This document shows, piece by piece, positions 30,716 through 34,461 of a stretch of DNA of 64,000 nucleotides (within the stretch, counting starts at the first letter, position 1; each line of letters opens with the position of its first letter). The notes under the pieces were generated by a model. It made no database searches, was not told the origin of the DNA, and saw only the letters and a program-made list of their open reading frames with translations. The stretch is taken from assembly GCA_018830485.1 (NCBI GenBank), contig JAHJRQ010000015.1, positions 620,001-684,000 on the forward strand. Reading direction: 5' to 3'. A program made the translations under genes and the position numbers. Source of the DNA: Pseudomonadota bacterium (GTDB lineage Bacteria > Desulfobacterota > Desulfobulbia > Desulfobulbales > Desulfurivibrionaceae).

Positions 30716-30753
30716 CAAAAATGGCGCCTCCCGGCAGGGAAGGCGCCATTTTT
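30716..30753. terminator. Bidirectional terminator between ahcY and the radical SAM gene
   Basis: AAAAATGGCGCCT pairs with AGGCGCCATTTTT around an 11-base loop. The A- and T-runs allow it to work on both strands, ending ahcY and the convergent radical SAM gene. Confidence 0.9.
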
Positions 30754-30775
30754 GTTTGTTACGCTCTTGCCCCGC

Positions 30776-31786
30776 TTACCGGAAGCAGGCGAATTCGGGC
30801 CGGAGATTGTCCTCAAGGGCCACGCCGTCTCCGGAGCTTCTGATCTTATAGCACGGAGGATACGGGGAATTCCTCACCGTATAAGCGTCCCTGGAATTCC
30901 AGACCTCTGCAAAGGGTTTTTCCGCGATGTTGCCCATTTTGGAAAAATCTTTCGCTATATCGCATCCCAACATGTCGAATTCCGGGGTGATCTCGATTTT
31001 TGTCAGCCCGATGGAGCAGCTTTGACAGCTAAACGTGGCATTTTTATGGAACTCCCAAGACTCGTGGCTTTCTTCCTCTCCGTATGACCGGAGCATGATG
31101 CGCAAGGAAGGCAGGAAGAGATCAGGGGGAAATTTTTTCGCATGCGCATTCAGCCGCATCCAAAAATCATATGCTTGCGAATCGCTGATCAATAGCTCCG
31201 GATGTTTGAGTGACCGGTCGGTGCGTTGAATATTAAGGAAATGGAAGCGTTTTACAAGCGGATACAACTCGTCGATGATCAAATGAGCGCTGTCGATATT
31301 CGCACTGCTTAGGACGCATGATATCTGGAGCTGCAAACCGCATTTCGCGAGATGCTTGATGTTTCGCAGTACGGTTTCCCCCATCCCCCTCGTCAGATCG
31401 TTGATGCGCGGGTCTGGGGAATCGAGGGAAACCTGGAGGATCATTTTCTTCCCCTCCGCAATCCCGGCAAGTCGCGAGGCTTTCTCCTTGTCGAGGAGCA
31501 CGCCGTTCGTCAGCACCCCCATTTGCATCCCGCTGTCGAGGATTTGCTGAATAACTTGGAATATCTGCGGGTGGAGAAAAGGTTCTCCCCCGGCGATGGT
31601 TATATCAAAGACGCCCAAGTCCCGGAATTCATCCACCAGCATGAACAGCCTTGCCGGATCCATGTAGATGTTTCGTGAGGCGTCCGCGTAGCAGTATTTG
31701 CAGGCGAGATTGCATCCTCCCGTAATCCAGAGACTGGCGGTGAGCGGCGCTTTCAGTGGGGCCCGGTAGGCTATATCGTTGTCCAT
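30776..31786 (-). CDS. Radical SAM enzyme with SPASM/twitch-like C-terminus
   Basis: A 336-residue radical SAM protein of the peptide-modifying type. The first cluster motif is CNLACKYC (C-x3-C-x2-C) near residue 25, followed by ITIAGGEPFLHP. The C-terminal part has CQSC, then C about 18 residues later in FDMLGCD, a GNIAEKPFAEVWNS segment, and late cysteines in PPCYK and FACFR, which would hold one or two auxiliary Fe-S clusters. Its start lies inside the end of the PqqD-like gene (16-base overlap), so they are tightly coupled. It probably modifies a peptide or protein presented by that partner. Confidence 0.87.
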   Translation of the reverse strand: MDNDIAYRAPLKAPLTASLWITGGCNLACKYCYADASRNIYMDPARLFMLVDEFRDLGVFDITIAGGEPFLHPQIFQVIQQILDSGMQMGVLTNGVLLDKEKASRLAGIAEGKKMILQVSLDSPDPRINDLTRGMGETVLRNIKHLAKCGLQLQISCVLSSANIDSAHLIIDELYPLVKRFHFLNIQRTDRSLKHPELLISDSQAYDFWMRLNAHAKKFPPDLFLPSLRIMLRSYGEEESHESWEFHKNATFSCQSCSIGLTKIEITPEFDMLGCDIAKDFSKMGNIAEKPFAEVWNSRDAYTVRNSPYPPCYKIRSSGDGVALEDNLRPEFACFR

Positions 31787-32280
31787 AGTCCGGCGCCTTT
31801 GAGAAAACTGACAAATGATTCCATCTCGTCTGCGGCAAACTCTGCTGATTTAAATGTTTTCAATTTTGCCGCGGGAGTTTTTTTCATTTCCTCGAGCAGT
31901 TTGTATCCTGGGGCATTCACCTTGTACACCCGGTCATTGACCGGGTCGAGGACAAGGCCGCCAAACTCTTCCTTGCGCATGATGAGCTTGGCCATGACAT
32001 CTTCGCCCGGTTTAACCCTCGAAGAAAAGGAGGGGGCCTTGGTGTAGTCTTGCACCCACTGGTTGTGTATCCACTGGGCGGACCAGTCATTTGCCATCCC
32101 CGCGACTTTTTCCTTGAAGGTGTTGCTGGCCACAGCCTCCCTGGATATCAGCTTCCCGGCAATGTCCTTGCGGACTTCGGAATGGCGTTCAAGAAAGGTC
32201 ACATGCCCCTTGCCCACGGGGAATTCTTGATTCATTGAGTACAGATACAATTCAATCGTCGGTTTTTGCTGCTTAGCCAT
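31771..32280 (-). CDS. PqqD-like protein with an extra N-terminal domain
   Basis: A 169-residue protein started at the ATG behind AAGGAGGGGAGGAA. Residues about 95-169 read as a PqqD-type peptide-binding domain: GGLVLDPVNDRVYKVNAPGYKLLEEMKK, then a helix ending ESFVSFLKGAGLW. PqqD domains carry substrate peptides to radical SAM enzymes. The first ~95 residues (IELYLYSMNQEFPVGKGHVTFLERH...NQWVQDYTKAP) match nothing I know. Coupling to the radical SAM gene is strong. No separate precursor peptide gene was found beside it. Confidence 0.72.
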   Translation of the reverse strand: MAKQQKPTIELYLYSMNQEFPVGKGHVTFLERHSEVRKDIAGKLISREAVASNTFKEKVAGMANDWSAQWIHNQWVQDYTKAPSFSSRVKPGEDVMAKLIMRKEEFGGLVLDPVNDRVYKVNAPGYKLLEEMKKTPAAKLKTFKSAEFAADEMESFVSFLKGAGLWTTI

Positions 32281-32424
32281 TTCCTCCCCTCCTTGTACGA
32301 TGTTGAAATCAAAGATGCGAACCTGCGGTTTCCCGAGGCATCGCTCTCCATCCTTTTGAAAGAACAATGTTTTTCAGTGTTGCTGTTTCAGGACAACGCC
32401 GTGGATCCATGGCGGTCTGTGGAT

Positions 32425-32454
32425 ATATTACGTTAGGAAAATACGTCTTGTCAA
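32425..32454 (-). promoter_or_regulatory. Promoter for the PqqD-like/radical SAM operon
   Basis: On the minus strand a perfect TTGACA (32454-32449) is followed after 18 bp by TAATAT (32430-32425). Transcription would begin near 32418, leaving a leader of about 135 bases before the PqqD-like start. The leader has some short complementary stretches (GATGC with GCATC) but no riboswitch I can name. The rest of the 32281-32613 gap shows nothing further. Confidence 0.7.
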
Positions 32455-32613
32455 GATGCCGGAAGTTTTCCGCACCGGGGCTTGCATGATGGGGGGAGAT
32501 GGGAAGAACAGGGGTATGCATGGGCGGAACGATGTGTGCCGCATCCTGCGGGCCGGGGGAACGCGGAAGGAAAGGCCTGGCCAGGCGTTAGCCGATTTAG
32601 GTGTGGGTTCGGC

Positions 32614-33300
32614 TCATGGCCGTGAAGCCTGAAGCCACTGGGCAAAGGTCTGGCCGTTGACCGTTCTGGCGCACAATCCTTGGAGAAGCGGCTCGACAAG
32701 ACGGTGTTCCTCAGGGGCAATGAGGAAGCCGGGAATCGCTGCCGTCGGTTCGCCATATGCGTCAACCTGCCCGGTGTTCATCCCTGCCAGCAGTTCCACC
32801 ATGGTGGACCAGCGCCCGCCATTGTCCAGATGTTCGATGTATTGCAGCAGGGCAGTGGCGCCGGCGAGATATCCCGGCGGCATCTCCGCCACCCCGCTTG
32901 CGGCGCAGGGGTCAAGGGAAGCAAAGAGTCGGCAGCCAAAGGGCCGCACCGGGTAGATGCTACAGCTTTCTTCCTTGAGAAACGGGCAGGGACGCAGGTC
33001 CCAGCTTTCCGGTTCATCCGGGGGCTCGCCTCGGAGATGGGCGTCGACGAAGGTGTTGGTGGTGCACTGGGCCGTACGGTTAACGGCCGGAAAAAATGCA
33101 GCCCCGTTCAGTTCGGCGCTGCGATTCTCCTGGCTCAGAAACGCCATGATCCCATCCCCCTCGAGGCTGGTCATGGTGACACTCCGGGTGCAGCAGGTGG
33201 CGCATCCCCGGCGGCAGGCAAAAGTGAAGGAAGCGGCCCACTCGGCAAAGGCGTCATGGAGGGTGGCCAGCAGCAGATGCTGAATCGGGCGGGGAATCAT
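32614..33300 (-). CDS. YkgJ-type cysteine-cluster protein
   Basis: A 228-residue protein with the metal-chelating pattern of the YkgJ/UPF0153 family: CRRGCATCC near residue 30, then CPFLKEESCSIYPVRPFGCR near residue 105. The cysteines are expected to hold zinc or an Fe-S centre. The start is the ATG within the short gap after birA; a longer frame would overlap birA. Function is unknown for the family. Confidence 0.83.
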   Translation of the reverse strand: MIPRPIQHLLLATLHDAFAEWAASFTFACRRGCATCCTRSVTMTSLEGDGIMAFLSQENRSAELNGAAFFPAVNRTAQCTTNTFVDAHLRGEPPDEPESWDLRPCPFLKEESCSIYPVRPFGCRLFASLDPCAASGVAEMPPGYLAGATALLQYIEHLDNGGRWSTMVELLAGMNTGQVDAYGEPTAAIPGFLIAPEEHRLVEPLLQGLCARTVNGQTFAQWLQASRP

Positions 33301-33328
33301 GGCAAAATCGGCTCCTGGGGGGATATTT

Positions 33329-34126
33329 TTATTCCTGTGCCAGGGAGATATCCCCGGAAAGAACGGAATGAATTTCTCCCCGGCCATCCCGGATGCGGAG
33401 AAGACCCTCTTCATCCGGCCCCAGGGAAAGGCCGGTGATGATCCTTCCCTGGGTGTTCACCCAGGAAACCAGGTGTCCGGCGTGGATATCACGTTGTCGC
33501 CATTCGGCCAGGATGCCCTGAAAATCCCCCTGTGCCAGCCGGGCCACAACGAGGTCCATTTCGGCGAGAATGGCCGCGAGCAAGGACCCTCGGTCATAGG
33601 CGGCGCCGGTTTCAGCCCGCAGCGAGGTGGCTTTGGCGCGCAAATCGCCGGAAAATGATTCCGAAGGGGTGTTGACGTTGAGGCCGATGCCGATCACTAC
33701 TGCGGTCTGTCCGGCTCCGGCCACCGCTTGCGTCTCGGTGAGGATGCCGCCGCATTTCCTGCCGCGCAGGAACAGATCGTTGGGCCATTTCAGCCCCGGT
33801 TGGCAAGGGGTGAGGCGTTGTAGCGCCTTGCACAGGGCAAGGCCTGCGGCCAGGGTGAGCTTGGGGAAATCAGCCGGGGCAAGGTGGGGGCGCAGGATCA
33901 GCGAAAAATAGAGACCGGTTCCTGGCGGCGAATGCCAGGTTCTGCCCGCAAGGCGGCCCCTCCCTGCGCTCTGGCTGTCTGCCACGATCAGGGTGGAGTC
34001 CGGGGCGCCGGTGTTGCTCAGGGCCAAGGCGAGATCGTTGGTTGAGCCGGTGTTGGTGAAAAAGTGCACCGGGTGCCGGCCCAGCTCGCCGGTGAGGATC
34101 ATGGTTTGCCAGATATCGTCAGGCAT
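33329..34126 (-). CDS. birA: Biotin--[acetyl-CoA-carboxylase] ligase
   Basis: A 265-residue enzyme that activates biotin and attaches it to biotin carriers. It has the GSTNDLA segment, the biotinyl-AMP loop SAGRGRLAGRTW, the catalytic LKWPNDLFL region and a C-terminal SH3-like domain (HAGHLVSWVNTQGRIITGLSLGPDEEG). The N-terminal DNA-binding domain of E. coli BirA is absent, so this is a group I ligase with no repressor role. The YkgJ-type gene follows 28 bases downstream. Confidence 0.93.
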   Translation of the reverse strand: MPDDIWQTMILTGELGRHPVHFFTNTGSTNDLALALSNTGAPDSTLIVADSQSAGRGRLAGRTWHSPPGTGLYFSLILRPHLAPADFPKLTLAAGLALCKALQRLTPCQPGLKWPNDLFLRGRKCGGILTETQAVAGAGQTAVVIGIGLNVNTPSESFSGDLRAKATSLRAETGAAYDRGSLLAAILAEMDLVVARLAQGDFQGILAEWRQRDIHAGHLVSWVNTQGRIITGLSLGPDEEGLLRIRDGRGEIHSVLSGDISLAQE

Positions 34127-34461
34127 ATTGTCTTGAAAGCTTCTTTTTTAGGTTTTTAGATTGTGATTGCCAAGTAATATCAGCACCCGGATAAACTTTA
34201 TCCTTCTGTTCATTTCTTTGCTTGCCCAAAGAAACGAACCAAAGAAAGGGCCCCCGGTGTCACTTGTCCCGCCGCTGGCGTGATGCCCCTGTGCTCCTCG
34301 ATGCTGCCGGGGCTTTGCAAACTCGGCTTCGCCTCAAACAGTGCAAAGCCCTTTTTCTGCAGCCTCTCCGGTGTTCGGCTGCGGGGCAATGGGATTTTTA
34401 CCGCATATGAATAAGGACGTTATTGAGATTTCTTGGTAGGCAGATTTTAGCGTGTGTTGGC
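34127..34461. other. Repeat-bearing intergenic region with a hairpin
   Basis: No gene is supported. 34220-34255 holds a CCAAAGAAACGAACCAAAGA stretch with a repeated CAAAGAAA core, a sequence type that recurs between genes in many proteobacteria. A perfect 10-bp inverted repeat, GGGCTTTGCA (34310-34319) with TGCAAAGCCC (34342-34351), is followed by five T and may end plus-strand transcription. Confidence 0.6.

Follow-up and report, generated by a model that had tools for sequence, protein, structure and literature searches.

The gene pair analyzed here lies on the reverse strand of the window (the whole 64,000-nucleotide stretch of DNA) and comprises a partner protein of 169 residues (31771-32280; ATG at 32280, stop at 31771), with GGAGG just 5' of its ATG, and a radical SAM enzyme of 336 residues (30776-31786; ATG at 31786, stop at 30776). 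As anticipated in the original prediction, these are a radical SAM gene and a PqqD-like gene overlapping by 16 bases (31771-31786), and the two frames also overlap in the related loci L005 to L008; since the partner frame runs 16 bases into the radical SAM gene, translational coupling of the two is likely. Comparison with relatives confirms both reading frames as real, because a distant relative (L008) encodes intact overlapping frames with about 55-59% protein identity to the window pair and the dN/dS of the pair vs. an 85% relative (L006) is low, at about 0.09-0.11. Between ahcY and the pair is a GGCGCC hairpin with A and T runs on either side (30720-30765), bidirectional-looking and probably a terminator shared by ahcY on the forward strand and the pair on the reverse strand. 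The promoter of its own that had been ascribed to the pair is weakly indicated by one candidate sigma-70 site, TTGACA-18-TAATAT (32454-32425, reverse strand; 10/12 match), with 2 promoter-like sites found in the region vs. 1.0 expected by chance.

The C-terminal half of the partner (residues ~94-169; 31774-31995, reverse strand) harbors the motif RKEEFGGLVLDPVNDRVYKVN and was modeled with AlphaFold2 from five sequences, yielding a C-terminal unit of three strands and three helices with a block pLDDT of 70-90 from residue 91. Structural comparison of this unit with VIA-align returned TbiB1 (Z 6.9), ThcOx (6.7), MccB (6.1) and lasso B1 (5.9) as top rows, followed by CteB (5.4), a RiPP heterocyclase (5.2), PbtF (5.1) and SuiB (4.4). 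Every named structure at Z >= 4 (4.0-6.9) is a RiPP protein with an RRE, CteB and SuiB among them being radical SAM enzymes, and the first row that is not an RRE has a Z of 3.0. The Z scores are modest and the RREs agree consistently, and the model therefore points to an RRE/PqqD fold in this half, so that the PqqD-like assignment came through the fold test set for it beforehand. At the sequence level, hhalign pairs RKEEFGGLVLDPVNDRVYKVN with VREEEFGLLFY...GPRLYFL of MftB and with other PqqD-like proteins at low probability, and the RRE motif RKEEFGG..DP..DRVY is retained with conservative changes in both lineages that carry the pair. The cut-off of PF05402 was not reached (best E 0.2, in 1/5 members), no Pfam or NCBIfam model matched the window partner at E up to 1, and no other PqqD homologue in the genome was over the cut-off. 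The sole PDB sequence match of the partner (E 0.59), to a sulfur oxygenase reductase, was taken as chance.

Residues 1-95 of the partner (31996-32280, reverse strand) make up the N-terminal domain, which matches no known family, with no match in Pfam, NCBIfam or PDB sequences and, up to E 10, no second copy in the genome; the homologue search proposed earlier for this fused domain accordingly came back empty in all of these, and the domain itself proved real and highly conserved. Its conserved blocks are IELYLYSMNQEFPV (residues 9-22) and ANDWSAQWIxNxWxQDYTKxPSxS (residues 63-86). Across five copies, 56/95 of its residues are invariant vs. 34/74 in the RRE half, with 27 of these falling in the first 36 residues and 20 in residues 61-86, and dN/dS vs. 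L006 is 0.064 for residues 1-95, compared to 0.128 in the RRE half and 0.111 in the radical SAM enzyme. These substitution patterns argue for strong purifying selection on the N-terminal domain as the best conserved part of the partner, a protein that contains no cysteine at all. The full-length model is poor over residues 11-90 (pLDDT 31-57) and displays a strand at residues 9-13, with a mean pLDDT of 73 for residues 1-10. Folded alone, the N-terminal domain reached a pLDDT of 47, with a low-confidence helix (pLDDT 40) in the region of residues 9-13; this pLDDT of 47 is too poor for a fold search, and hence we do not call the fold of the domain new. Given that the strand at residues 9-13 appears only when the RRE is included in the model, we take it as a hint that this strand packs on the RRE. 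Leader peptides bound to an RRE are known to form a fourth beta strand (PMC11002830).

The enzyme matches the radical SAM model PF04055 with 73 bits (cut-off 29.5, 4e-20), lies above the cut-off of PF13353 and carries a CNLACKYC motif with invariant C25, C29 and C32 as well as GGEP. Its match to the SPASM model PF13186 amounts to 26.6 bits vs. a cut-off of 21.5, and in an alignment to MftC the invariant residues C254, C257, C275 and C312 correspond to one auxiliary-cluster set, with the second SPASM cysteine set (CxxCx5CxxxC...C) absent and no counterpart in this chain of the segment after C312. We read the C-terminus of the enzyme as a truncated, twitch-like SPASM domain with one predicted auxiliary cluster, twitch domains being truncated SPASM domains (PMC11002830). 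The best NCBIfam model is that of mycofactocin MftC (TIGR03962), with 84.9 bits for the window copy and 98.3 for L008 against a cut-off of 265, and the enzyme reached the cut-off of none of the NCBIfam models listed. By these matches, it is a genuine radical SAM enzyme, nearest to the peptide maturases. When 28 radical SAM proteins were placed in a tree, the MftC group and the family of the window enzyme came out apart with full support (100/100), the latter forming its own clade outside MftC. The pair shares with GeoRSP the combination of a radical SAM protein with a PqqD-like partner, but it is without the adjacent second SPASM protein, and at 74-76 bits the GeoRSP model TIGR04303 falls far below its cut-off of 400, which places the pair outside GeoRSP; the likeness to GeoRSP noted in the original prediction is no closer than that to several other families.

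Grouping of the enzyme with tRNA or cofactor enzymes had been named beforehand as a result that would speak against a peptide-modifying pair. The best score went to a peptide maturase, although the AhbD, NirJ and archaeal MoaA models lie ~8-30 bits under it for the window copy, AhbD and MoaA being not far behind. These scores bear on an explanation in which a vestigial or structural RRE accompanies an enzyme for small molecules, like AhbD, NirJ or MoaA, and a single auxiliary cluster is also found in small-molecule enzymes. Weighing these points against the top score, the preservation of the RRE motif in both lineages and an N-terminal domain that would be left unexplained, we consider a small-molecule substrate improbable, and the least probable of the explanations discussed here.

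Peptide-modifying systems of this make-up lead one to expect a precursor gene, and its absence nearby, as predicted, was borne out in the related loci: among small ORFs (20-150 aa) in the window, L005-L007 and the 8.2 kb of L008, none outside the pair is common to both contexts, and all L008 matches are shadow frames inside the pair. Beyond about 46 bp, the 330 bp upstream is conserved solely with a 98% relative. The small-ORF comparison together with the poor upstream conservation ruled out an adjacent separate precursor. Judged by sequence, the pair would thus not have the precursor beside its maturase that marks a RiPP locus, and a fused precursor would be compatible with this arrangement. 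No MftA was found near the pair, and the MftA C-terminus IDGICGVY, sought as that exact pattern only and leaving out variants such as VDGICGIY, is absent from the genome.

The pair nevertheless resembles mycofactocin loci in several respects: 1) as with MftB/MftC, a separate RRE protein is positioned directly 5' of a radical SAM maturase; 2) MftC is the nearest curated model and accounts for most of the nearest phylum matches listed, and of the 19 other matches listed from 297 phylum genomes, 13 are at loci where an MftA-like ORF ending in DGICG(V/I)Y is visible; 3) MftC and the window enzyme have in common the L(K/R)AP start, CNLxCxxC, GGEPF and QVSLD. Unlike mycofactocin, however, the window pair is without MftA and its RRE carries a fused N-terminal domain, and unlike MftC, the window enzyme is without the second auxiliary cluster and sits in its own clade; with TIGR03962 below 265 bits, the MftA pattern absent and a position outside the MftC clade, the pair is not a mycofactocin system. 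A classical RiPP-type pair served by a small precursor gene elsewhere in the genome would agree with the usual RiPP make-up of an RRE plus a SPASM-type radical SAM enzyme and with MftB/MftC as nearest sequence relatives. We nonetheless find it unlikely, marginally less so than a small-molecule substrate, as the 13 mycofactocin-type loci read have their precursor close to the radical SAM gene, no small ORF beyond the two genes recurs across contexts and the exact MftA C-terminus is missing from the genome.

Scanning 84,980 species genomes with the window peptides uncovered four relatives, and no other lineage came from searches of 97, 395 and 258 genomes; plasmid and viral collections held no relatives. 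The pair was found in only five genomes, namely 4 of the 17 searched in the genus plus L008 (about 55-59% identical), where it adjoins an unrelated RND-type gene in flanks unlike those of the genus copies, and the two genes alone are common to genus and L008 in the sequence seen. Within the genus, an accessory module (30753-32616) is missing as a block from nine genus-mates that keep the ahcY and YkgJ-like flanks in order, some of these pair-less sites having a gap of tens of bases and others a dispersed repeat. In one of the nine, G001 (L060 2632-4124), a kinase-like and UspA-like pair is found between ahcY and the YkgJ-like gene, making the site an apparent cargo hot spot. The YkgJ-like gene adjoining the pair (32614-33414, reverse strand) encodes a cysteine-cluster protein (CRRGCATCC) and is not part of the pair because it is also found in pair-less genomes. 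A functional link to metK/ahcY was likewise rejected, as ahcY and its downstream neighbor hold the same places in pair-less genus-mates. Carriers are ungrouped in an ahcY tree of 15 rows, with G004 next to the non-carrier G008 and with G000 and G007 together. The GC content of the pair is 52.1% vs. 58.7% for the window, below 99.6% of same-size stretches, and the other copies are 5-8 points under their flanks. The GC, site and ahcY-tree data therefore suggest a horizontally acquired, dispensable, low-GC two-gene module. As a separate observation, a ~195-bp dispersed repeat in the window (34204-34398) has 17 genome matches, 16 of them covering most of the repeat at 78-100%, and copies also occur in the ahcY-YkgJ gap of G011, G014 and G005.

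The original prediction had left the substrate as remote, as the fused domain itself or as a protein, and our analysis supports this suggestion in that the target is most likely either the fused N-terminal domain or a remote protein that this domain binds. Our leading reading, held tentatively, is that the pair forms a minimal, undescribed two-protein radical SAM-RRE modification unit whose target is fused in residues 1-95 of the partner. Somewhat less probable, yet a real possibility, is that a remote host protein is modified, with the N-terminal domain as an adaptor, the RRE presenting a peptide of that protein and the radical SAM enzyme acting on it; such an adaptor would account for a near-invariant domain resembling a binding surface, would make an adjacent precursor unnecessary and would join the RREs with uncharacterized fusions, or away from RiPP genes, that have been reported (PMC12710340). 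On the other hand, two lineages with different flanks and no other common gene in the sequence seen suggest no target, and most genus-mates are without the unit, implying that a host target, if there is one, can do without it. We slightly favor the fused target over the adaptor since there is no shared precursor and since the N-terminal domain is fused, without known relatives and the most conserved part of the partner.

With the fused target as the preferred reading, we surmise that the C-terminal RRE of the partner would hold a peptide strand and dock with the radical SAM enzyme, which would cleave SAM at its CxxxCxxC cluster, assisted by one auxiliary Fe-S cluster, and modify an aromatic-rich segment by radical chemistry. 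Residues 9-13, as an internal leader-like strand, may sit in the RRE cleft, residues 63-86 (W66, W70, W75, Y79) may be the target segment, and the product would be a modified protein, with no released peptide. A thioether within the partner is excluded because the partner has no cysteine, and a C-C or C-N crosslink, or oxidation, would be the likelier chemistry there. In favor of the fused target, residues 9-13 form a strand with the RRE and a helix without it, as expected if packed there. Against it, the Trp/Tyr segment is nearly invariant, whereas RiPP cores usually vary; this near-invariance suits a protein-borne cofactor and, equally, a plain binding domain. Also against it, the pair has no protease or transporter gene beside it, and the N-terminal domain model is poor. 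The alignment of the pair is shallow, with two distinct lineages known. We put forward more doubtfully still a self-contained system in which a single protein is both precursor and RRE and the enzyme installs a crosslinked or oxidized Trp/Tyr in its own partner, giving rise to a protein-borne cofactor or a modified protein with no separate peptide involved.

Among known systems, CteB and SuiB likewise combine radical SAM chemistry with an RRE, and the partner fold matches their RRE (Z 5.4 and 4.4). CteB and SuiB carry this RRE on the enzyme itself and have a separate precursor, whereas the window RRE is fused to an N-terminal domain of no known family. Borosins, in which the precursor is fused to its methyltransferase, offer a precedent for a substrate joined to its maturation machinery, but they belong to a different enzyme class and serve as an analogy alone. 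RREs fused to uncharacterized domains or located away from known RiPP genes have already been reported in bulk (PMC12710340). Because such RREs and twitch domains were reported earlier, the kind of system is already known; neither the window family nor its N-terminal domain has a match in the libraries searched. Should target and recognition domain prove to be one protein, systems of this type would escape pipelines that hunt for small-ORF precursors, and testing two genes would be enough to find new radical SAM chemistry; even with a remote protein target, the pair would be a compact, testable RRE-guided enzyme without a RiPP precursor.

Two other radical SAM loci came to our attention. The genome that harbors the pair also contains, at L011 389-2559 (G000 contig C8, near 105 kb), a 244-residue protein with a Cys-rich C-terminal repeat directly 5' of a radical SAM protein of 477 residues with an N-terminal extension, a locus that looks like the ranthipeptide/sactipeptide type. 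In another genome of the phylum, a small Cys-rich ORF with Gly/Ala repeats (L034 2619-2936) adjoins a radical SAM/SPASM gene and is possibly its precursor.
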